64,000 nt of DNA. Source: Owenia fusiformis. Taxonomy: Eukaryota; Annelida; Polychaeta; Sabellida; Oweniidae. The position numbers and the translations under genes are program-made. The stretch covers positions 27,455,915 to 27,519,914 of the forward strand of contig CAIIXF020000001.1 in NCBI GenBank assembly GCA_903813345.2. Direction: 5' to 3'. Shown here one piece after another: positions 1 to 64,000 of the stretch. Position 1 is the first letter of the stretch. Each line of letters opens with the position of its first letter. A model generated the notes under the pieces. It was given only the letters and a program-made list of their open reading frames with translations. It was not told the origin of the DNA and did no database searches.

Positions 1-654
1 GAAAGCAAATAAAGGATAGGTATCGATATGGTGAACTGAATTCAACAATGTATTTCTCTTCAACCAATTATTGAAAACATTCTGTAAAAAACACTATCCT
101 TTATGTAATGTTTACTGATTGACTACAATTTAATGCAAAAATTATTTACAGGGTGTCCCGAAAGTATGGGGCCCCCTAGGCAGACATATACCAGTGTTGT
201 CATAGTATGTGTCATATATCATTTTAAAGCTTATCCAAAGTTACATTGATTCACCAAGTATCATGGTTCAACTCTCAAATGTGAGAAAATTCCAGGCATT
301 TCAAAATTGAGTGTTTGGTCAAAATTAAGTTAAATTTTACACCAATTAAATCACGAGTCAATGTGTCCTCCCGGGCCAACTTAACAGCAGCAATTCTTTT
401 CAGGTCGGAGGGTCAGATTGCTTCATTTCCATGAGACACTTTATCCTTACTGGGGTTGTGGCAGGCAGGTTTTGGGTTGGGACTGGGGCATGGGTGACTA
501 GACAAGGGGTCGGATAGACCTAATACAACAATGGAGGGTGACTATTGGCCTATTCAACCATCTACATATACTTAAACAACCTAAATGCCGACAAAATAGA
601 ATTCCAATAACTAGAGACTTGCTCTTTTTTGAATTGATCAAACCCCCCCTCGTG

Positions 655-3600
655 ATGTATATGCTCTTATATGCATACCTGAGATTCTTCGACATATCAT
701 ATGTGATCTATGGGATTTTACTATTGTTGTATCTGGTCAGTTGCATAACAACTTGTCTTTTCCTTCCACTGTTGATAATATACCATATAAATCAGCATCT
801 CAAATACATTGTGAGTCCTTACTCCCTATGTTTGACCTTAAAAGTTCTAGCAACCAGTTGTGTTGTACCTGGAATTTGCATATTAACATTTGCTCCAAAC
901 TTGAAAATGTTATTACTTCTTATAGCAGGAGATGTCCATCCTAATCCAGGTCCGAACAATCTTTCATTTTTGTTTTCCAATATAAATAGCCTCTCAGCAA
1001 ATGGGGGTACACGATTTGACTCTTTGAAACTAAGAATAAATGAACTTAATCCAAGCATTATTGGCCTTTGTGAGGCTGGAATTTCCAAATCCAAAATGGA
1101 TTCGGGTGATTTTGACATTAATAATTATAATGTTTTTTACAGTGAAAGAGGTAGAGGTCTGGTAATTTATACTCATAAAACCCTAGTGACAAAAATCTCT
1201 AATGACTTTATCATAGATGGGCTTGACATCCTGTTAGTAACTGTTATTGTGAACCATAAACGAATTTTATTTGGCTCTTGCTACAGGTCACCCAGTCAGA
1301 ATGCAACAGAAACAAGAAATTATTTTTCATTATTGGAAACTCAACTTGATCAAATAGTAACATCTCAGCCGGCCTTTGACCATGTCATACTGATGGGTGA
1401 CCTGAATGCAAAACATTCAATCTGGTATGATAATGATGACATAAACTTAGCAGGAACTAAACTCTTAGAAACCATAGATAACCAAGACTTTGTACAACTT
1501 GTTAGTGAACCAACTAGAATAACTGATCACTCCAAATCCTGCATTGATCATATTTTGACCGATTCTCCAGATATTTTTGACAACTGGGATGTCACTGATC
1601 CCATTGAAAAAACCGACCACAGCACAATTGTAGCTCAAATTAAAGTTGGTGTGACTAAGTCCAAGCCTATTAAAAAAACCATTTGGAAATACCATGAAGC
1701 TAATCTTGAAACTTTGAATGATGCTATTAGAAATACCGAATGGACAGATATTATCGATAGAAACATAGACTTGGACTTAGCTACCTCTAACTTTATTGAA
1801 AAACTCTCGGACATATACAAATCCAAAATTCCAAATAAAATCATCACTGTAAGGTCAAATGACCAGCCATGGTTCAATGATAATCTTAAACGTGAAATAT
1901 CAAAAAAGAAAGTTTTATATAAGAAATTTTCAAAAGCTCCTAATCAAGTTAACAAATTCAATTATAATCAACAAGCTTCTAAAGTTTCCCAACTAATTGA
2001 ACAAGCCAAAGAGGCACATGAACTCAAAACTATCTCATCAATTGACCAACTCAATAAATCTGATAAAAACTATTGGAGGTTAATTAAATCATTCCTTGGT
2101 AACAATTTACATAAAAATGATATTTCTAGTATCTATGATGATGTCTCTGGACACGACTTATCTAACAACCTTGATATAGCTAACCGATTTATGAGTTTCT
2201 TTGCCTCAAAAAATCATACTGATGCAACTTTTGATCAATTGCCCCATTTCCCAATTAGGACTAATTCTCTACTCATTTCCGCCCAGACCGATCAATTTGA
2301 GGTAATGAAAATAATTTTGTCCTTAGACACCTCAAAGGCATGTGGCCCAGATAACATCACAAACAAAATGTTGAATTTGACAGCCCATACCATTTCAAAA
2401 CCTTTAGCCAACTTATTCAACAAACTTTTATCAAAGTGTACCTACCCGGATATCTGGAAAATTGGAAATGTTTGCCCAATTTTTAAGAAGAATGACAAAT
2501 CAAACATCAACAATTATAGACCTATCACTCTTTTAAGCTGTATCTCTAAAGTATTTGAAAAAGTAATAGCTGATCGAATCAGGAAGCATTTAATTGACAA
2601 TAATCTTCTTTTCAAACATCAGTCCGGATTCTTACCAGGTCATAGTACTATTCATCAACTTTTATCTATTGAACATTTTCTTCAGAGCACATTTGAACAA
2701 GGAAAAGCTTCCAAAACAATTTTTCTAGATATAGCGGCTGCATTTGACAGAGTACCACATAAGCTACTACTTCATAAACTTTCAGCATATGGCTTCCAAG
2801 GGCAAATTCAAAAAATTATCAAATCTTACCTTACTAACAGAAAAATTGCTGTGCAGATATCTGGGGAACTTTCAAATTATTCTGAAAATGACTTTATCAA
2901 TTGTGGTGTCCCCCAGGGCTCAATACTTGGGCCAATATTATTTCTCCTATACATTAATGACCTTCCAGACAATCTGGAGGGGCATTGCTATATTTATGCG
3001 GATGACACTTCTCTACATCATCCTTTTGACCCTAAGCATCCACAAGAAGTAGATGCAATAGCCAGATCTAACCTAATTAAAATTGAAAAATGGTCTGACA
3101 CCTGGAAATTGGAGTTTAAACCTGAAAAGAGTTCTGAAATGATATTCCACTCATCCAGATCTAAAGTCGATAATGTTTCTGTTTCAAAGTTAAACAATGT
3201 TGAAATTACCAGAGATCACGAGCACAAACATCTGGGATTTACTTTTGACCCAAGCTTATCATATGACAAGCATATTGGAGAAATCATATCAAAAATACGA
3301 AAAATGTTGAACCCTTTAAAGAAACTTAAATATAAGTTAGGTAGTAAGCATCTAGAAACCATATTTAAGTCCTTTATTTTACCCCATTTTGACTATGGTG
3401 CTATCATGTACAGCACAGCCTCAAAGTTCCTATTACAACGACTCGACAGTCTTTATTATAAAGCTGCACTTTATTGTTCTGGGTGTATCCAAGGGAGCAG
3501 TTCAAAAAAGGTTTTAAACCTACTCAATTGGCCAACTCTTGAATCAAGACGCAGTATCCAGATTAACAACTTTATGTTCAAAATTGTAAATGGTACAAGT

Positions 3601-4191
3601 CCTCCCTATGTAACTGATATTTTTGACAAATTTAGAAACCAAGCAAACAGAGTATTGAGATATAATGAAGCATTTAAAATGCCCATTAGATGCTCAAATA
3701 GGTTCTCCACCTCAGCAATACCAGCTGCAATTTCAAATTGGATCAATCTTCCACCTGCTATTAAATCTAAGAATACTCTTTCGAATTTTAAAAAACACCA
3801 AAGAGTACATTTCCAAAAAACGCCCTCGATTTTGTCAACAAGCCAGCTTAATCTAACAAGGGTTCAAGAAATAGTTCTCAATAAAGTGAGAGCTGACCTA
3901 TACTTCAAAGCCCAGTTCTACGCTCACAACTTTCAGTCTATTGACAGCCCTAATTGCACTTGTGGAAAACCACAAACTCTGAAACATTTTCTCTTTCAAT
4001 GTGACTTACTTACTATACAAAGACAGCAATTCATGGACAAACTCACTGATCTCGAACCAAACATCTTCAGTCATAATCTCTCTCAAACTGATTTCATAGC
4101 TATCTTGAAAACAGGAATTCCCAAATTAAACATAGATGCAAATTCCCAAATACTACTTCTCATTGTTAATTTTATCAAAGACAATAGCTAA
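655..4191 (+). CDS. LINE polyprotein: hydrophobic leader, 2A-like motif, APE endonuclease, reverse transcriptase
   Basis: The frame opens after a stop at 499-501 and its first ATG is at 655, giving 1,178 residues. Residues 1-98 are very hydrophobic, with several leucine-rich stretches, and end in GDVHPNPGP (Gly99/Pro100), a 2A-like ribosome-skipping motif. The APE-type endonuclease follows (about 105-330) with GDLNAKH, CIDHILTD and KTDHS as catalytic-core motifs. The reverse transcriptase lies at about 550-830, with PISL-type block NNYRPITLLS, GVPQGSILGP and the catalytic YADD at 781-784. A cysteine/histidine cluster of the form C-x-C...H...C sits near the C-terminus (after SPNCTCGK). The protein would copy its own RNA at nicked chromosomal DNA. 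I see no internal stop. Confidence 0.9.
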   Translation: MYMLLYAYLRFFDISYVIYGILLLLYLVSCITTCLFLPLLIIYHINQHLKYIVSPYSLCLTLKVLATSCVVPGICILTFAPNLKMLLLLIAGDVHPNPGPNNLSFLFSNINSLSANGGTRFDSLKLRINELNPSIIGLCEAGISKSKMDSGDFDINNYNVFYSERGRGLVIYTHKTLVTKISNDFIIDGLDILLVTVIVNHKRILFGSCYRSPSQNATETRNYFSLLETQLDQIVTSQPAFDHVILMGDLNAKHSIWYDNDDINLAGTKLLETIDNQDFVQLVSEPTRITDHSKSCIDHILTDSPDIFDNWDVTDPIEKTDHSTIVAQIKVGVTKSKPIKKTIWKYHEANLETLNDAIRNTEWTDIIDRNIDLDLATSNFIEKLSDIYKSKIPNKIITVRSNDQPWFNDNLKREISKKKVLYKKFSKAPNQVNKFNYNQQASKVSQLIEQAKEAHELKTISSIDQLNKSDKNYWRLIKSFLGNNLHKNDISSIYDDVSGHDLSNNLDIANRFMSFFASKNHTDATFDQLPHFPIRTNSLLISAQTDQFEVMKIILSLDTSKACGPDNITNKMLNLTAHTISKPLANLFNKLLSKCTYPDIWKIGNVCPIFKKNDKSNINNYRPITLLSCISKVFEKVIADRIRKHLIDNNLLFKHQSGFLPGHSTIHQLLSIEHFLQSTFEQGKASKTIFLDIAAAFDRVPHKLLLHKLSAYGFQGQIQKIIKSYLTNRKIAVQISGELSNYSENDFINCGVPQGSILGPILFLLYINDLPDNLEGHCYIYADDTSLHHPFDPKHPQEVDAIARSNLIKIEKWSDTWKLEFKPEKSSEMIFHSSRSKVDNVSVSKLNNVEITRDHEHKHLGFTFDPSLSYDKHIGEIISKIRKMLNPLKKLKYKLGSKHLETIFKSFILPHFDYGAIMYSTASKFLLQRLDSLYYKAALYCSGCIQGSSSKKVLNLLNWPTLESRRSIQINNFMFKIVNGTSPPYVTDIFDKFRNQANRVLRYNEAFKMPIRCSNRFSTSAIPAAISNWINLPPAIKSKNTLSNFKKHQRVHFQKTPSILSTSQLNLTRVQEIVLNKVRADLYFKAQFYAHNFQSIDSPNCTCGKPQTLKHFLFQCDLLTIQRQQFMDKLTDLEPNIFSHNLSQTDFIAILKTGIPKLNIDANSQILLLIVNFIKDNS
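925..954 (+). other. 2A-like translational recoding motif
   Basis: Codons 925-954 read AGDVHPNPGP. The 2A consensus is D-(V/I)-E-x-N-P-G-P; here the Glu position is His. In 2A peptides the ribosome fails to join the last Gly to Pro, so the hydrophobic leader would be released from the enzyme part. 2A-like motifs at the N-terminus of APE-type LINE proteins are known in several invertebrates. Activity of this His variant cannot be judged from sequence. Confidence 0.7.
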
Positions 4192-8811: not shown

Positions 8812-9414
8812 TCTTTAATTCAAAGTTGACAAGCACTTAAATATTTGTGCACAGAGCTAATTGTCTAGAAGTGATTTTTGCTAGTTTCGACAGAAACTAG
8901 AATATATATTCACCATCACGCACGGGTACTATAACTTTCCTAGTTTACAAGAAAATAAGAATTGTCTGGAGGGGAAAATATCTGGAAATTATAACCCCTC
9001 ATGCATTATCATAATAATTATCTTTGGAAATGTAAACACAATAAAAAATCTAGTTTTGTGTTGAATGAAACATTTGATGAAAAAGAAGATTTTTCTGACG
9101 ACATCTATACATTTAAGATGGACATAAAACTAGGACCTGAAACTAGTTGTACTATCCATTCGTTCACTACGTTGTTAACGTATCATTCTGTTACCCATCA
9201 ATATTGTCTGGTGATATATTTTATCAAAATATATCTAACATATAGTCGGAGTTAGACTTTACATCCTCGGAAACCAGGTTAGGATCACCTGGGTTCCAAG
9301 AATGTATGATAAATATGTCGAGTCAAGTACCGGACGGGGGCTATATCAACAGGGACACGAAACAAAACAAAACAGAATATAGATTTTCATACAGTATTCG
9401 AAACATTTATTTTT

Positions 9415-10028
9415 TCATTTTTGATTACAAGCAAATGTGCCTATTTTTGATGCTATGGCTTTGGCGAGGCTTAAATCAGCAACTTGATAAAGAGGTGGCA
9501 GAAACGTGTGTTCCGCATCGGGGTCGGTAGCAAGATCATTCCAGTGGGTCCCAGGGTCTTTAGCTCGCTTGTGGGGTAAGCCAACTACAATGACATCTGC
9601 ATTGTAAGGATGTCCCTCAAGTTTCCTGGCTAGTGCTACAGCTTTTGGCTTAAAACGTTTTGGATGCGTCACACCATCGGTTATGATACAAACAAAATTC
9701 TTATTGTTAGGCCGATCTCCATTTTTATCCAAGTACTCCTCAGAGATTTGCTTAAGAGCTTTATCTGTTCTTGTTTTCCTCCCGTCTAACTCCATAAATA
9801 AGCCAGCAATATTGTCCAAGACTCCATCTTTTGTGTTGTTAGTATTTAAGTAAAACTGGTCTTTGACGGTCTTGTCGAATACCAGGGCTGCAAACTGCAC
9901 TTCTGTCTGACGGGGACCAACTTCGAACTGGTTGACTATGTTTGCCATTAACGTTGTCACGTCTTTTAATACTTCTCGCTTTACACTGTAGCTGTTATCT
10001 ACCGCAAATACCACGTCGGGACCACATT
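9415..10028 (-). CDS. Extra vWA-domain terminal exon (orphan or alternative last exon)
   Basis: This 614-base block is the same length as the last exon of the vWA gene at 21,279-21,892. It has the same splice acceptor and the same entry phase (two bases finish the first codon). The encoded vWA domain differs from that exon at only four residues (Ser to Thr, Gly to Arg, Ala to Val, Ile to Phe, reading from the other copy). The metal-ion site DNSYS and the ITDG aspartate are kept. The stop is followed almost at once by AATAAA on the minus strand (9,406-9,411). No partner exon with a fitting donor is visible between it and the gap at 11,001. It could be spliced from the upstream exons near 22.3 kb across the PAN/EGF/LamG gene, could use exons hidden in the gap, or could be a silent duplicate. 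Confidence 0.6.
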
Positions 10029-10139
10029 CTTAAAAAAAGCATATGAACTTTTCATAATACTCATACTTTTCATAATAACCAGAGGTTTAAGATTGCAAGC
10101 AATCTTACGGAGGCCCCGTAGGCTTTTTTGAACATTTAA

Positions 10140-12003: not shown

Positions 12004-12054
12004 TTGTTAACTGCGAGGAGATCTTGGTTTTTAACAAATTTCAAGTCAAGAACT

Positions 12055-15000
12055 ATGGATAAATTTTTGGTTACACTCACCATGTTATGCTGTGTTCGCG
12101 GGAACATATTAGATGGGATTTTCGAAAACAAAGATGTATGCGCTGATACTGCAACGCTGACATCTGCAATCCAGTTTCTTCTTCATGACGTAAGCAGACT
12201 TAATTGCGCACGGACGTGCTACGAAACACCTGACTGCACTGCGTTGTCGTATTCAAAAAGCTCAAAATCGTGTACGCTATATGAGCTGACGATGATAGAA
12301 CCACCTTGTCCTTTCGTTGAACGACTTCTTGTAAAGGTGAGGCATGACTTCGTAATATCTTATCATAATCGTTATATATAATATATACATTCGAATGCCT
12401 TCCTATCATGTTTACACTTATATTTCTATTACAGGGATTTAAATGTTTCAACGGAGGACGTGGCGTTAGAAATGAATGCATATGTTACGGTGACTTTACT
12501 GGTGTAACCTGCTTGGGTAAGTATACCTTTGAAACCAACCCTATAACAACATCTATACAAGAGTTAACAATCCATAGCATTTTTAGGAAATTCATACTTT
12601 ATTTCACAAACCATATTCAAAAATATGCACATTGCATGTAGTGATCACAAATTGAAATTGACGATGGAAATAAGTCTATGTGTATATTCTTGGTATATTC
12701 ACACTTTGATAAATTATTATTGGTCCCTGGAAAGAGAACTGGTATAATGGAAGCTGCTATTTTTAAAAGTTGGTTAATGTACAAAGCGTTTTTTACCTTT
12801 TGAGTCCAATGGGAGAATAGGCCATGGGTCTTTAACAGGTCTATTTAAAGAGGATCTTTTGACAGGATTTTATGGGATTTCCCTGCACTTAGCCTTTCTT
12901 GGAAAGGTCTTTTCAAAAATCCGATGGGACTCGCTTAAAGGACAGCAACAATGGGCAGGTCGATTCTTTTGTCGGTCCTTAGAGGCTAGATTTTGGACAA
13001 AGTGTATTTGATCCTTTTTTGATTTGTCTTTGAATAATTAGCGTATTGGAATATTTGGAAGCTGTTTTTTTCTGCTGGGGCTGAAAACAAATGTCAAAAG
13101 TTATGATCATTCAAAGAAAATGTCTTGAAAATATTAAGTGTTTACAGGTACCGACAGGTAAAGTGTCTGCACATCAATGTATTTTGAGAAAAGCGCAGTA
13201 TTTCACAATAGTACTGTGACACTTGTTTCAATGTGAAAACTTCAACTCTTACATCTATGAATATCACAAATGTATTATCTTAAAAGCAAGGAAAATTGTA
13301 TCCAAGGCTTCCATCTCGTTATTCTGCCATATATCACACCCGGTGATCGTGAAAATGGGACGGAGGGGGGGGAGCAGGCAATTTCCGCTAGAAAATTCAA
13401 CAAATCTGGTAAAATTATTTTTTCAAGACAGAGTTTACGATTGAATTGCAAATTGAATAAGCGCACCGTATGATAAAATATGTTAGGTATTCTAGGATTA
13501 TTTTTAAACCGATACTCTTTTAAGATATAAGATCTATTAAAAAAGGCGCAACGCAACCAACGTGCAAAAGTCAAAGTTTTTGCTATAAATCAAGCAACAA
13601 TGGACTACACGACCTGTAATAAATACTTGTAAGTGATGTTATCATAACTAAATTAATGTCATTGCTGAATTTATAAAATAAGTTTCCATACGTAAAATAA
13701 AAAATAATCGAAAATAATTAAAATGGGACGGAGGGGGGGAGGGGACGGAGGGGGGAGTAATAATTCTATAAAGTGAAACAACTTCACACGAATTCTTGTA
13801 TTTGAAAAATGAACTCATTAACTTAGTAAGAAACTGGATGATATACCCTTGGAGACTGAAAAATGGGGACATTTGGAGTAAAAGGACTTAAAGTCGCGAA
13901 ACATCTCTAATCATGTCTTATATACATATTGCTCCCCCCCTCCGTCCCCTCCCCCCCCTCCGTCCCAAATTCATTATTTTCGATTATTTTTTATTTCACA
14001 TATGGAAACTTATTTTATAAATTCAGCAATGACATTAATTTAATTATGATAACATCACTTACAAGTATTTATTACAGGTCGTCCAGGCCATTGTTGCTTG
14101 ATTTATAGCAAAAATGTTGATTTGTGCCTGTTGATGGCCTCGCGCCTTTTTTAATAGATCTCATACCTTAGATACGTATCGTTTCAGAAAAAATCCCAGA
14201 AAACCTAACATATTCTACCATACCGTGCGCCTATCCATTAAGCAATTCAATAGTAAACATTTTCTTGAAAAAATAAATCTTCCAGATTTGTTGAATTTCC
14301 TAGCATTAATTGCCTGCTCCCCCCCCCCCCTCCGTCCCATATTCACGATCACCGGGTGTGTATATGGAGATATCTTTATTACAAAATTCGAATTCAAACA
14401 GCCGCCAATTTGTTCACTTCAGAGTTTGAATAGCGAGTTTTGATCTTATTTCTAAATAAAAAAATTCAAAACACACAAGACGTAATCGAGATATTGGTCC
14501 GAATCTGTTGGACTGTTTATTATGAAATAATAGTCAGTTATAATGTCAGAAAATAAGGACATTTTGAATGTTGATATCGATTAACGTCAAGGTCAACATC
14601 GAGTAGCGTCCCTTGAATTCATTTCTCTATGATCGTAAGTATATGTGAACAGCATTAGAAGTTACTAAAACTTCTTGTCACCAATTGAACATTGATATCT
14701 TATGATAGAAAACGTCTAAACAATTTGATACAAAACAATTACCTTAATTCCACACAAATTTTACTGACACCTCTCACTTAGGAGAGTGATCATTCCAATT
14801 GCTGGAAAACATCTCATCCAATCATTTATTGGCCATCACATCTATGGTATCTTTACTATCTCAATAACATTCCCAGATATAATATCCCATTCTCTAGATT
14901 ACAAACGTCCATTTAACAAGTTTGTTATGTTACTCTCCAGATACATCAATTAACACACAATGTCTGAATTGCTTCAATGAATTATTGTAACCAATTAAAA

Positions 15001-21278: not shown

Positions 21279-24200
21279 TCATTTTTGATTACAAGCAAAT
21301 GTGCCTATTTTTGATGCTATGGCTTTGGCGAGGCTTAAATCAGCAACTTGATAAAGAGGTGGTAGGAACGTGTGTTCCGCATCGGGGTCGGTAGCAAGAT
21401 CATTCCAGTGGGTCCCAGGGTCTTTAGCTCGCTTGTGGGGTAAGCCAACTACAATGACATCTGCATTGTAGGGATGTCCCTCAAGTTTCCTGGCTAGTGC
21501 CACAGCTTTTGGCTTAAAACGTTTTGGATGCGTCACACCATCGGTTATGATACAAACAATATTCTTATTGTTAGGCCGATCTCCATTTTTATCCAAGTAC
21601 TCCTCGGAGATTTGCTTAAGAGCTTTATCTGTTCTTGTTTTCCTCCCGTCTAACTCCATAAATAAGCCAGCAATATTGTCCAAGACTCCATCTTTTGTGT
21701 TGTTAGTATTTAAGTAAAACTGGTCTTTGACGGTCTTGTCGAATACCAGTGCTGCAAACTGCGCTTCTGTCTGACCGGGACCAACTTCGAACTGGTTGAC
21801 TATGTTTGCCATTAACGATGTCACGTCTTTTAATACTTCTCGCTTTACACTGTAGCTGTTATCTACCGCAAATACCACGTCGGGACCACATTCTTAAAAA
21901 AGCATATGAACTTTTCATAATAATAATTGTGCTAAGAGCTGTAAGACGTATCACAGCGTAATCAAACACAGGAATATGTATCCGATGAATTAGTTTCGAG
22001 ATCTATTTTTAATCTAGATGTGACATAAAATTGAATAAAATATTGACAAATAGTTGGTTCTCTAAGGATTTATCTCATTCCTCTCATGATCAAATAAAAA
22101 ATACTTGTACATTATTATTAAAATAAAAGATGCTTGCATATCTTTTATATCATTATTAAAATAAAAAATATTTGTATATTATTGGAAATTAGATTTGTTA
22201 TTTAATGTATGGTCATGATAAATAAATCTGTACAGACATCATTTGAAGGACATTTTTAAAATTACTTACGTGGTATTGGAATGTCGTCGCCTAGTCCGGC
22301 TGAAAAATAATAACGTAACTAAAAAAGATGCAAATGGTACTTTTACAACCGATTATCAATGTGTTATCAACCAGTAAATTTATTTGAGCAAACTGTCTTA
22401 TTTGATATTAAATAATAATCACCTATAATGTTCAAACTATTCAGACAAACGTACCATTAATACGTCAATCGAAATACATATCTGACTTGCATTAACTGAC
22501 ATTATATTGCTATTCAGACTTTCCACTTTGATAAAGAAATATCAAATTTACTTGAGCAATCCGTTCCAGACCAGATTTTGTTGCTTCAGGCCATTTTCGA
22601 TTTAACATTGCCAATTTAACAATCAATGTGTAAGTCTTACATTGGAAGTAAATATATCTCAATTGGACAAGGTCTTTATTTAATATTCTATAACCATAAA
22701 GGCACTAACCGTCATCACCTAGTGGGGGCAGATCAAAATGTGGTGGTCCTGTAAAATAAAATACCGTAGTGTTATCAATGGAAGCTCCATCTATACGCAG
22801 TAGTTAACTTCATCGCCATTAGGCAAAAGAGAATCGTTTTAAAGATATTGAAAATAGTAAAATTATCCAATTATATTTTTCGTAAAATTGTACCTACTGT
22901 ACCTCAAAGAATGGGGTATATAATCTCTTCTAATGATGAAATTCTTTATTTTTGAACGAGAGATGACAGTTGATTCTGATTATGAGAAACGACGAATGCT
23001 TTGAATTCCATGTGATCTTATACCAGTAATTACCCTTTGCAATCGTTCGACTTCGCTTCTCAAAATAGAGCTTCGTCTTCAGAAGCTCATAACTAGACTC
23101 TGCGCGCGGGGTAATTACCATCACTGTATGTTTAATATTACTTTTTGAGACAAAACAAATGAAACCGACATTCGTTTTTTAGTTCTTTTGAACTCTATTT
23201 TATGATCATTTTAAATAGACCATGCTACACTCTAAAAGGTTCAGAAAATGAATAAGGCATATTGTACTGATGGAGTAATGGATTCAATTATTTGGAACAA
23301 TAATTTAATCAAAACAATTGGAAAACAGAATAAAATAATGCCATATGAACAATTATCTCATATCATCGGAAAAATGCAACAAACCTAATTCAGTATTTAG
23401 GCTTAAAAGCCAATATTAGCAAACAAATTATTGATGAAAATATGAATACTAATGAAGACAATATTAATTTTATGGGTAAAGATATAACACAATGTACCAC
23501 ATCAGATTTTAAAAATGAATTCGTTAAATATAAACATGTTGGCATTTTAATAAATAATATGAAAATTGATAAAAGTTCTTGGTTAGGTGCTCATAATTGT
23601 ACTTATGAAAATGTGTTCCGTATTTTACATTGGAAGTCACTTCACAATATTTTTCCGTGTAATTCGATTCTGTTAAAGTTAAAGTTATTAACCATTAAAA
23701 TAGCTTTCTAATTAATCTAAATATTGTGTCGGTTGCAGTGATTGCCTAATGCGATTTAGTGAATCATACACTATTGAACGGTGATAGACAATGAATTACA
23801 TTATTTGATTTATATCAAAATTGAATCCGGCCGACATTGTTGGTGAAGTTAACTGCAGCCATCGCCAATGTCTTTCAAATCAGAAACACATTTTCAACAC
23901 ACATACGAGAATACGGCAATACTCACTATCTTGAAATAAAGCTCTAAGTGCATAGAGCCTAGGCACGATCCATAAGGAAGGTTGATCCCAATTATACGTT
24001 CCTCCTACTTGGAAATCTTCATCGTACCTAAAGATGTTATAAAATAGAGGTGCTAAAAGTATGGCTAGTATTTACAAAAGTAATATTTTAATAGGTTCCT
24101 TTTAGATAAAGTGGAAAACAATATTTCCCATGTTATTTTCCCATAGGGAAAAATCATTGCTTTCAGCTAAGTTTGGTCACCCATAATGGGTACCAAATCC

Positions 24201-27162
24201 TACGTCCTTCAGCATCTCAAGTGGTAAAACTTGAAACTTGAATGAGAAAGCCACTTACGATTTGATATTGAGGGTGTCATACATCGTTGTATAAGGTATG
24301 TTATCCGTTGCAGCTTGCCAAGGATTTGCATTCGATATGACACCGACGGGATCATCTTTTGAGTAGAACACTCCCAAAACATTCATTTGATTCACCCTGA
24401 GCTAAAATTTAGTATGGAAACATTTCAAAATATACCGTCGCATTAACAGTTTTAAAGTGGTACGAACTGCTTGATAAAAATAATTTCAAAAAACATAGTT
24501 TCATATTTTTGTAAACACTGATATCGATCTTACATAAGCCTCTTGCGGTATCGAAACTGTGACAAGTCCTCCTTGATCTCCTTGTGAAGCGTCCCATGGT
24601 AAGGCAGTTTTGTGCTTAAGAGTATATTCGTATTTTTCTGGACCGCTAAATTCCCAAATGCCAACGTATGCAGTACCCTTTGAGCCAGGATGGCGGTAGT
24701 ATTCATATCCAGTAACCACACCATCACACGGAAAGATATCTCCTACCTTAAAAGCAGTGAAATAGGGATGACGTCAACATTTTTACCATCGCATATATAT
24801 TTTCTCCCATAAGATACACATGTACAATATCCAGTTGAATTGACTTACGATTCCAATCATATGGTGGAATTATTTCAGATTCAAGGTGTAAAATATTTAA
24901 ATTATATGGATATTCACATAATGAACACAAAAATGTATAAATCATAAATTTTCCCGGGATAGAGATTATATACTATAAGGAAGATGAGTCAAAACCATTT
25001 TAATTAGAGCTGATTCTGCATTCCCTTATGGGGGGGGGGGGGTATGATAAGGTAATTCATCTGATCATGAAAGGAGTTTTTCTTTTTGTCATGGATAAGG
25101 GCCTCGGGGTTTACTAAGAGCATTTTCTGAAAAGATATTAAGCACTTATCTAGGGTGAGAGAGAAGAGAGACCGAAGTGTCATTAAGCTTGTTATTTACA
25201 TCAGTTTACTTAAAAAAAGAATCTAAACAGGTAACGAGGAAAAGGCACCTGTAGGTTTCCCCAGTTATCCCCGCTTTGTGGTAACTCCTTCATAAGCGCG
25301 TTTACAGGGACAGTATCAAGGGCTTGACATTTTGCATTGTCAAATATAGGACCTTGACTTGCAGTTGCATCATCTAAAAGTCAAAATTAAAATTGTGAAC
25401 AGTCCATTATTATATAAGATGCTTAAAAATATATTTATATATATATAAAAGATATCTAGATGTTTTGTTTATCATTTTGTACAATACCTCCTTCAAATTC
25501 AGCTTGAATTGCATATGTTCTCTTCACGTAATTCATCTGATTATTTGGGGCAAAGTTAAACTCCGCACCAACTGTAAATTGGTCGTCAAAGTACTACAAT
25601 CAAGAAAAGTAATTATATAATAATACTAAGAATACTTATATAAATACAGACTTTTTCTGAGAATTTACATCTGAAAAAAAATCAGTTCTCTAACGATATC
25701 GGAATATACATGTATATTTTATGATAGACGTATCACACAGGTTAATGTAAAATCAGTTTGATGTTTAACATTTTTACACTTCACCATTTAGGCATTTTCA
25801 AAATGATTCCAATGGCCATGTTGCTTGTTAATTTCCGGTATAAAGATCTTACCCCTCCGTTAAACGTAAAGAAATAATCTTCTAATAATAGTTCAGGATT
25901 TTCTCCCTTATACAAATTAGCATTTGCCACTCCACATTTAGAAGCACTCCTCGAGAAATGGATTCCTATAAAGTCTCCCTTCTGTACGGGCGCCTGAAGT
26001 AGAACAAACACATGCATATACACATGATAACTAACTACTGAAACATGTAATCTGGCTCAAACACTTATCTCATACCTCGTACACTGTAGCTACCGCATGT
26101 TTTCCAGAGTTGCAAGTGTAACATCGACGACATCATGTTTATAAGAAATACCTGCCATAAAACCTCTCCATAAGTTTGCCAACCGAAAGTCAATGCTGTG
26201 TTCTAAGAACTGCCCTAGTTTTGTATATTTTTTAGAATAACAATTAAGTAGAAACTTGATGACTATGATGTATTTGGAGTGGGTGTGTAAATACCTCAGG
26301 ACTGACGGGAACTGTATGCTTTCCAACGGTAGTTGCTGGCAATTCTGTTTTAAAGATAAGCTTAAATACGCCATTTTGTACGATTCTCCATACAGACACA
26401 AATGCTGCATCTTTAGGGTCGTTCCTAAATAAGAAATCACAGTAATTAAACATACATCAGAAAATCATATTATAGGGCCAATATGAAAACAGCTATTGTT
26501 CTGTAATTAAAACAACGATCATTTAATATCTAAACGTATCTAGTCATTTCTTTAAGGCGAGTCTAGTGGAGCGACATGAACATCCGTTTCTCCAATGCAT
26601 CCTTCACATTAGCCACTCATTCTACTCTACCTTTAACATATCATAGCACATGTTTAAGTATTAGTATTATGAGAGGTGTTCTCATTTCATGAATACCTAT
26701 AATATGTCCATGATTTCACGACACCATTACACGGGAAAACATTATCAGTCATAAGGTTTGCCCAATTTCCACCAGTGTCAGGCAACGACTTCACCTCTCC
26801 CCCACCATTCTTGGGAAAACCTACTACGCTAGGGCATGTCCCTGTAGCTTGCCCTGGAAAGACAATTACGCCAATCTTGCTTATTATATCATGGTCAGAA
26901 ACAAAAGATGGTTACAGTCGGTTCAATGAGAAAGAATTTAAGCCTGAAAGTAGGAATGTCTTTACAAATGGATGAGACCCAAGTCTTGCTTGATTACGAC
27001 AAATAAAAGTGTAATGGACATTTAAATAAAAAAATTGTTCCATTTATTGTTCACTCATTTTGGGGCTGGGTATATAATAGCCGCAAATATTGAATATACA
27101 AAAAGTTATTTACCTTTAACCACTGCACACGCAGCTACCATAGTGACCAAACGCATCAACAT
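21279..27162 (-). CDS. Secreted protein with two copies of an unrecognised domain and a C-terminal vWA domain, complete 12-exon gene
   Basis: Coding exons in order: 27,162-27,114; 26,853-26,697; 26,424-26,295; 25,993-25,853; 25,593-25,488; 25,373-25,249; 24,746-24,534; 24,401-24,259; 24,027-23,927; 22,748-22,710; 22,299-22,270; 21,892-21,279. Phases match across all joins and give 615 residues. Residues 1-15 or so (MLMRLVTMVAACAVV) are a signal peptide. Two homologous units follow, about 17-194 and 195-388; matching pieces are NWANLMTDNVFPCNGVV / NWGNLQVGDIFPCDGVV, AFVSVWR / AYVGIWE, FKTELP / HKTALP, DFIGIHFS / NVLGVFYS and YFDDQFTVGAEF / YDEDFQVGGTY. I do not recognise this likely all-beta unit. 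A short acidic/proline linker from two tiny exons (LPPLGDD, LGDDIPIP) leads to the vWA domain (about 413-615) with intact MIDAS DNSYS (422-426) and ITDG. It is probably a matrix or recognition protein that binds metal-dependently. The donor after exon 6 (GTGCCT) is weak, but the A/B alignment supports it. Confidence 0.85.
23262..23711 (+). pseudogene. Possible LINE ORF fragment
   Basis: Very A/T-rich broken frames read DGVMDSIIWNNNLIKTIGKQ and, further on, a frame at 23,442-23,711 with SSWLGAHNC. A WNN-x-x-I-K stretch resembles the region after the polymerase in some LINE proteins. It lies in the intron between vWA-gene exons 9 and 10. The likeness is weak; it may be chance. Confidence 0.2.
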
Positions 27163-49019: not shown

Positions 49020-49630
49020 ACACAGGTTGTTATAATTAAACCTCAATTGGTACAGTAGTAACTATTATATTTCAAATGGTTAGATTACACAGGTTACTAT
49101 TAAACCTCAATTGATGCAGTAGTACCTTTGGATTTCAAAAGGTTTACACAAGTTGCTATTAAACCTCAATTGGTACACTGGTATCTATTAAATTTCAACT
49201 GGTTTACACAGGTTAGTATTAGACCTCAACTGGTACAGTAGTAACTATTAGATTTCACATAGTATACAAAGGTTACTATTAAATCTCAATTGGTACGGTA
49301 GTAACTATTAGATTTCAACGGGTTTACATAGGTTACTGTTAAATATCATCGGTACAGTAGTATTAGATTTTAAATGATTTACGCAAGTTACTATTAAACC
49401 TCAATAGGTACACTGGTATCTATAAAATTTCAACTGGTTTACACGGGTTACTATTAAACCTAGGCCTTAATTGGCACAGTAGTAACTATCAGATTTCAAA
49501 TGGTTTACACAGTTTACTTTTGGACCTCAATTGGTACGGTAGTAACTATTAGATTTCAAATGGTTTACAAGATTACTATTAAACATCAATTGATACACTG
49601 GTAACAATAGATTTCAACTGGTTTACACAA
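49020..49630. repeat. Minisatellite, about 10 units of 60 bases (unit 1)
   Basis: Units follow the pattern GGTTTACACAGGTTACTATT, AAACCTCAATTGGTACAGTA, GTAACTATTAGATTTCAAAT. They are noticeably diverged from each other, while the whole array is nearly identical to its copy in unit 2, so the array is older than the 1.6-kb duplication. Confidence 0.9.
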
Positions 49631-49765: not shown

Positions 49766-51380
49766 AGAAAAAGATACAATTGAAACTAAGGAATAAGCAA
49801 GCGCCATATCTTTCTTCCATCTTGTAGTTATGTGTCAGCCTGTGTAACTATAGTTGATGAACAATAGATGAAAATATGATTCGATTACAAACTGCTGATC
49901 AAGATGCTTAATAATTTATAAGGCTACCATTGTTGAACGATGAAAGCTAAAAGTACAGAGGGAAGGCGTCGTGTCGTTTAGTCACTTCACTATACGAAAA
50001 TATAGTGACAAGATATTCTCACGATATGCATGTCAATAAAATCCCGAACTGTTGTGGAAACACACGAAGCAAATGTGGGGCACTGAGTACAAATCATCCC
50101 TTTGGGACCAGATTTGTTGGTCATGTTATCAAACTTTTCTCTATACGAAGTAACTGGAACTCTCACTTTTGAATGTTTTGCTTGCGCCCTTATAATGATG
50201 GAATTATATATCCAAACATTTTTTGAAATTTACTGACAAAAAAAACATTTGAATGATACATAACATTAAACATTATTTCTTGTAATATTTATAATTGGAA
50301 GCCAGACTCATATCAAGTAAATGTTACTTGGGAAATATTTGAAGTAATTCAACACTACAGCATTTCATAAGTAATTTCATGTAATTTAAAACCTGAAGTA
50401 GTATTGCTTTTTTGTGTGAGGGGATGTTTTCTTTTGTTTTAAAAAATAATTCCCAGTCTCCAATGATCTCAAAAATTAAATGCACGACAGTTCAGTCAAC
50501 ATTTATGACTCCAGGCCCATAGTACATTTCATTTAGGGATAAATGTTTCTTGAATGAACAGTTAATAGTATATCTTCCGGTTTTACTGAATTGGGCATTT
50601 GAATATATCTTTACGTTTTTCAATGGTTTTTGCTTACACAGGTTGTTATAATTAAACCTCAATTGGTACAGTAGTAACTATTATATTTCAAATGGTTAGA
50701 TTACACAGGTTACTATTAAACCTCAATTGATGCAGTAGTACCTTTGGATTTCAAAAGGTTTACACAAGTTGCTATTAAACCTCAATTGGTACACTGGTAT
50801 CTATTAAATTTCAACTGGTTTACACAGGTTAGTATTAGACCTCAACTGGTACAGTAGTAACTATTAGATTTCACATAGTATACAAAGGTTACTATTAAAT
50901 CTCAATTGGTACGGTAGTAACTATTAGATTTCAACGGGTTTACATAGGTTACTGTTAAATATCATCGGTACAGTAGTATTAGATTTTAAATGATTTACGC
51001 AAGTTACTATTAAACCTCAATAGGTACACTGGTATCTATAAAATTTCAACTGGTTTACACGGGTTACTATTAAACCTAGGCCTCAATTGGCACAGTAGTA
51101 ACTATCAGATTTCAAATGGTTTACACAGTTTACTTTTGGACCTCAATTGGTACGGTAGTAACTATTAGATTTCAAATGGTTTACAAGATTACTATTAAAC
51201 ATCAATTGATACACTGGTAACAATAGATTTCAACTGGTTTACACAAAGGGGCGATCAATAAATTGCAAGAGACCCACTATTTCTGACAATATTTGAAGTC
51301 ACGTGATCAAACATACACATAAGTATAGTAGATCGATAGACCAGTAACAAATAATTGACTGAGTCAAATGTTATGAACAG
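49766..51380. repeat. Tandem duplication, unit 2 (extra receptor promoter)
   Basis: Same content as unit 1: start codon region at about 49,770-49,820, TATA box at 49,915-49,920, then upstream DNA. A transcript starting here would encode MEERYGACLFLSFNCIFF, leave the duplicated exon at the junction and reach a stop three codons later, unless splicing skips it. Confidence 0.9.
50636..51246. repeat. Minisatellite, about 10 units of 60 bases (unit 2)
   Basis: Near-identical copy of the array at 49,020-49,630, with the same order of unit variants. Confidence 0.9.

Positions 51381-52000: not shown

Positions 52001-64000
<12,000 letters not shown>

Follow-up and report, generated by a model that had tools for sequence, protein, structure and literature searches.

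What kind of protein is encoded by the minus-strand gene at positions 27162-21279 of a 64,000-nucleotide stretch of the Owenia fusiformis genome (assembly GCA_903813345.2, contig CAIIXF020000001.1, positions 27,455,915 to 27,519,914), and does its repeated domain belong to a named family? The initial annotation of this stretch, which at its full length we call the window, had described a duplicated domain joined to a vWA domain in a secreted protein. Our analysis argues, with reasonable though not high confidence, that the gene encodes a secreted adhesion or recognition protein built from two uncatalogued extracellular modules and a metal-dependent vWA domain. The predicted order is a signal peptide, the two modules and, after a short linker, a single vWA domain, and the protein would be secreted. 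Neither the system nor its mechanism is of a new kind; judged by Pfam, NCBIfam, PHROGs and PDB sequences, the module is best regarded as a domain family without a name in a protein of well-known type.

The two units occupy residues 17-194 and 195-388 of the window protein, and their recurrence, which the initial annotation had noticed by its motifs, is evident from the alignments. BLASTP joins them with 74.7 bits and an expectation value (E) of 7e-22 (53 of 181 residues identical), and their Smith-Waterman score of 190 compares with a maximum of 63 among 2000 shuffles. All of the motifs named earlier are present in both units, i.e. NWxNL, FPC[ND]GVV, YYR, a Trp strand, KTxLP and [DE]xFxVG. An iterated alignment of the unit (52 rows, 18 of them long) contains two invariant cysteines: the first is present in 29 of the 29 rows that reach its position, and the second, within FPC[ND]G, in 33 of 33. 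This invariance across the unit rows suggests that the two residues form a disulphide. With its ~160-180 residues, the module probably folds into a beta-rich domain that one conserved disulphide holds together.

Rebuilt from the DNA, the gene consists of 12 exons with AG/GT borders and agreeing phases, which give an open frame of 615 residues. The protein starts with the signal-peptide-like MLMRLVTMVAACAVVK and ends with a vWA domain (PF00092), which Pfam detects with 84.5 bits against a cut-off of 23.8 (E 1.4e-23). The residues DNSYS at 422, KTRT at 496 and TDG at 528 are all there, and we take them to be the metal-ion-dependent adhesion site (MIDAS) with its elements DxSxS, T and D. The metal site was thus correctly recognized as intact in the initial annotation; of the pairing of a signal peptide with this domain, the vWA part is confirmed by Pfam and the metal-site residues, and the signal peptide is a call from hydropathy. 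Nothing unusual was seen in the vWA domain itself. It is the best-founded binding part of the protein, and metal-dependent ligand binding is predicted from its sequence. Elsewhere in the genome, at C1:37.84-37.86 Mb, many near-identical vWA exons form a tandem array with a regular spacing of ~1.9 kb.

A search of the genome for relatives (498 Mb, 525 contigs) revealed a paralogue on the opposite strand, ~1 Mb from the window gene at C1:28.473-28.478 Mb. It keeps 10 of the 12 exons, namely exon 1, the vWA exon and exons 2-9, which share the frame and are bordered by AG/GT. No counterpart of exons 10 and 11 is detectable there, and the best alignments of these two exons score lower than the 95% point obtained with 200 shuffles. 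The units of the two genes are identical at 343 of 372 residues, with a nonsynonymous rate (dN) of 0.036, a synonymous rate (dS) of 0.163 and a dN/dS ratio of 0.22; the ratio for the vWA domain is 0.38. The comparison indicates that the exons of the window gene evolve as coding sequence, and both genes are under purifying selection. In a tree of the units, which leaves 7 of its 13 inner branches open and has several long rows, the first units of the two genes group together (g1u1 with g2u1, support 100/99), as do the second units (g1u2 with g2u2, support 100/100). The duplication of the unit therefore preceded the duplication of the gene. The 3' end of the gene is partly duplicated within the window (8815-10059). 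The vWA exon of this second copy (9415-10028) has 10 of 614 bases and 4 residues changed, and no unit exons stand beside it within the window. The segment is either a recent duplication or an assembly duplicate.

The statement in the initial annotation that the unit matches no named family stood up to the searches, since Pfam, NCBIfam and PDB sequences gave no placement and the only recurring hint, to DUF4082 (PF13313), stayed below its cut-off. Unit 1 found no Pfam match at E≤10. The top Pfam match of unit 2 was DUF4082 (E 0.005, 17.3 bits against a cut-off of 28.4), followed by MFP2b (E 0.13). When 14 full-length units were searched at E≤1, a comparison in which the cut-off was not applied, DUF4082 matched 2 of them, with E 0.0042 at best, and one unit each was matched by four other families (best E 0.018). 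DUF4082 was again on top for the unit consensus (E 0.016, 15.6 bits). NCBIfam offered nothing better than E 0.16, and a profile of the 14 units reached at best E 0.57 among PDB sequences. A description of the module was not found in the literature, as covered by open-licence papers and a few search words. Two further candidates were rejected. The phage tail protein family phrog_16185 matched one of the 14 units (E 7.5e-5), and in the longer open frame the match (E 1.5e-4) was confined to residues 119-187; it was set aside because a single unit and only part of the domain were matched. Antibody heavy chains among the PDB sequences were hit by the single double unit (E 0.0068), and these matches were set aside because the 14-unit profile did not repeat them.

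The hint to DUF4082 raises the possibility that the unit is not a separate family but a divergent animal branch of this bacterial domain, which is a module of bacterial multidomain proteins. We regard this as doubtful, albeit worth serious attention. DUF4082 has the same motif order as the unit (G-x-[IV] ... [FY]-Y, then a W, then a later strand) and is likewise repeated in multidomain proteins. We collected 18 bacterial DUF4082 domains and compared them with 16 units by hhalign. This resulted in a score of 23.8 (P 0.0047) over 71 columns with the motifs in the same order, which is higher than any of 100 shuffles of the DUF4082 columns (maximum 21.0) or 200 shuffles of the unit columns (maximum 20.2); the decoys Kringle, AbfB (only 4 rows) and vWA scored 9.1-12.3. 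With 52 unit rows the score was 24.4 (P 0.0026) or 20.4 (P 0.012), depending on the gap setting, and under the second setting it again exceeded 200 of 200 shuffles (maximum 19.0), with decoys at 10.2-13.9. However, the hhalign probability was 7.5% with 16 units, 11.5% or, at the gap setting used for the shuffles, 3.5% with 52 rows, and 0.06% in global mode. The unit did not qualify as a member of DUF4082: the curated cut-off of 28.4 bits was reached nowhere it was tested, i.e. with units 1 and 2, the consensus and a search of the Owenia genome itself, where DUF4082 found two matches, the best with E 0.26, 19.4 bits and two stops inside. Only the middle of the 143-position profile aligns (26-70 with unit 2, 26-90 with the consensus and 26-110 with the genomic match containing the stops). 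Furthermore, none of the 18 DUF4082 sequences contains a cysteine, whereas the two cysteines of the units are invariant. In six bacterial open frames examined by Pfam, DUF4082 occurred together with Big_5, Big_7, Big_3_5, DMFA2_C or Ice_binding in four and alone in one; the remaining frame had no match and was probably the wrong one. Although the likeness between the unit and DUF4082 is probably not noise, it does not establish kinship. The profile-profile comparison proposed with the initial annotation hence gave no strong match to a known family and one faint, undecided likeness.

Within this genome the module forms a family, and it is a widespread one. With the 372-residue double unit as query, 69 genomic places were found at E≤10. 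A composed unit consensus matched 80 places at E≤1 and 62 at E≤1e-3 (contigs C1, C2, C6, C7, C11 and C12); what is counted here are exons rather than genes, and the window gene together with its paralogue accounts for 6 of the 62. Within the window, a six-frame scan at E≤0.01 found the units in the window gene alone. Outside this genome, pattern matches to the unit in prokaryotic genome contigs (20) and viral contigs (17) included none that could be confirmed, and the plasmid and phage collections held no relatives; these collections cover prokaryotes, viruses and plasmids and imply nothing about other animals.

We fetched 20 loci, 19 of which contained unit matches, and scanned with Pfam 20 open frames that neighbour or carry units, chosen mostly because they looked domain-like. 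Matches over the cut-off comprised Kringle in six frames and AbfB in five (one frame with both), and SUEL lectin, CUB, PAN_1/PAN_2 and Methyltransf_FA in one each; Sushi and Amnionless appeared once each below the cut-off, and four frames had no match. Two of the combinations occur within one open frame: AbfB with the unit at L030:2912-4069, and the unit with SUEL lectin at L039:3555-4592. Kringle, AbfB, CUB, PAN_1 and Methyltransf_FA were found in neighbouring open frames on the same strand as the units. Pfam-confirmed Kringle domains are present in 6 of the 19 unit-bearing loci, and a regular expression picked out 32 Kringle-like stretches in the fetched loci. These Kringle/AbfB loci, many of them clustered on C2 and C6, have the unit in common with the window gene but differ from it in that their units lie amid Kringle and AbfB open frames. 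Loci L036 and L037 differ from it in another way, since a membrane-helix-like exon with an NPxY-like tail, identified by eye, follows the unit. Among the fetched unit loci a vWA exon was seen only in the paralogue, and none was noticed elsewhere, with the Pfam scan covering the 20 chosen frames. Hence the unit is not tied to vWA as a partner, as the pairing described in the initial annotation might have implied. The search for other partner domains, which that annotation had proposed for related genomes, was answered within this genome by Kringle, AbfB, SUEL lectin, CUB and PAN domains beside units. At the loci L030-L046 on C2 and C6, Kringle, AbfB and the unit are mixed on one strand; no paper on the combination of AbfB with Kringle was found among open-licence papers with a few search words.

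The intron phases may explain how the module came to be so widespread. All module borders of the window gene (exons 1/2, 5/6, 9/10 and 11/12) are in phase 1, and shuffled extracellular domains typically are symmetric phase-1 modules. Among 12 units elsewhere that are encoded by a single exon, an AG in phase 1 precedes the first Cys codon by exactly five bases in seven, and the last Gly codon carries a phase-1 GT in seven. We propose that duplication, together with the shuffling of exons between phase-1 introns, spread the module. With a named profile for the module, dozens of exons in this genome that now lack an explanation would be annotated, perhaps along with others in relatives, and the mobile extracellular modules would gain a further building block.

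What might the protein do? The company of lectin, AbfB, Kringle, CUB and PAN domains is typical of cell-surface and matrix proteins, which makes it likely that the modules are recognition domains. In the model that we favour the two modules would bind a surface or matrix ligand, for which a glycan is the first guess because of the domains found near the module, and the vWA domain would bind a protein ligand through its metal ion. The protein may in this way bridge two components of a matrix, a tube or mucus, and such bridging is our first choice of role. The extracellular setting suggested by the initial annotation agrees with the neighbouring domains and the invariant cysteines; the matrix role is a proposal. 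Several observations weigh against this model. The glycan ligand is guilt by association, since the window protein itself has no Kringle, AbfB, SUEL, CUB or PAN domain, and Kringle, CUB and PAN domains often bind proteins. The neighbouring open frames were counted as one gene by order, strand and spacing, without complementary DNA. The count of donors at the last Gly codon is weak and not fully independent evidence because the Gly codon GGT itself creates a phase-1 GT, and the sequence reads on as GTA in only 5 of the 7. Finally, folding the 71-residue exon 7 as a single sequence gave no usable structure (mean predicted local distance difference test score 50.5). A wider picture can be put forward only tentatively: the module would represent an animal extracellular superfamily that shares a remote ancestor with DUF4082, was shuffled through phase-1 introns into dozens of exons as a glycan- or matrix-recognition module, and is here combined with vWA in a bridging protein. 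The window gene and its paralogue provide a clean test system, with a duplicate module adjoining a metal-dependent binding domain.

The main functional rival of the bridging role is immune recognition, in which the protein would act as a lectin-like opsonin or a complement-like vWA protein and not as a matrix component. The clustered and diverged families beside SUEL lectin, CUB, PAN and, below the cut-off, Sushi-like domains speak for it, as such families with such neighbours recall expanded recognition repertoires. Purifying selection on both genes (dN/dS 0.22 for the units and 0.38 for the vWA domain) and the lack of a protease or collagen-like part in the Pfam scan of the protein model make it rather unlikely, although neither observation excludes an immune role. 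It is very improbable that the two units and the vWA domain belong to different genes, or that a decayed gene has been pieced together in error, as the unsupported exons 10 and 11 and the lone vWA exon copy might suggest, since the paralogue has unit exons and vWA exon in the same order, in frame and in phase.

The exons of the window gene, all on the minus strand, can be described as follows. Exon 1 (27114..27162) contains the start codon and the signal-peptide-like sequence and ends in phase 1 at a donor that is also present in the paralogue. Exons 2-9 are supported by the splice model and the paralogue and, except for the weaker exon 6, by matches to the unit profile. Unit 1 is composed of exon 2 (26697..26853; N-terminal part with the Cys, NWANL, FPCNGVV and YYR), exon 3 (26295..26424; Trp strand and KTELP), exon 4 (25853..25993; V-KGDFIGIHFS strand) and exon 5 (25488..25593; C-terminal part, phase-1 end). 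Unit 2 begins with exon 6 (25249..25373; N-terminal part with the Cys and NWGNL), which alone is weak in the unit profile (E 0.0085). It continues with exon 7 (24534..24746; core with FPCDGVV, YYR, the Trp strand and KTALP), the site of the sub-threshold DUF4082 match, exon 8 (24259..24401; LGVFYS strand) and exon 9 (23927..24027; C-terminal part with EDFQVGG, phase-1 end). Exon 10 (22710..22748, 39 bases) and the acidic exon 11 (22270..22299, 30 bases) are short, uncertain linkers that were placed by splice borders and frame. The gene can be read without them because the end of exon 9 and the start of exon 12 are both in phase 1; the joined protein then has 592 residues. Exon 12 (21279..21892) encodes the vWA domain with its intact metal site (PF00092, E 9.1e-25) and the stop codon, and is supported by the splice model and the paralogue. 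The exon joins proposed earlier are thus backed by clean borders and phases and, for exons 1-9 and the vWA exon but not for the two tiny linkers, also by the paralogue.

The window contains several other features. Two tandem arrays of a 60-base unit (49035-49629 and 50651-51245) have equal length, copy number and score and are ~1.6 kb apart; they are probably one duplicated segment. The remaining assignments were made by eye. At 13350-14400 an apparent inverted repeat, in which the G-rich gggacggaggggg and its complement flank similar AT-rich stretches, resembles a mobile element. The plus strand has an open frame of 1229 residues with a non-LTR (long terminal repeat) retrotransposon-like product (502-4188) and another with a signal-peptide-like start followed by a PAN/apple-like cysteine pattern (12004-12378). 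Minus-strand open frames at 53263-59827 resemble an animal fatty acid synthase or polyketide synthase.

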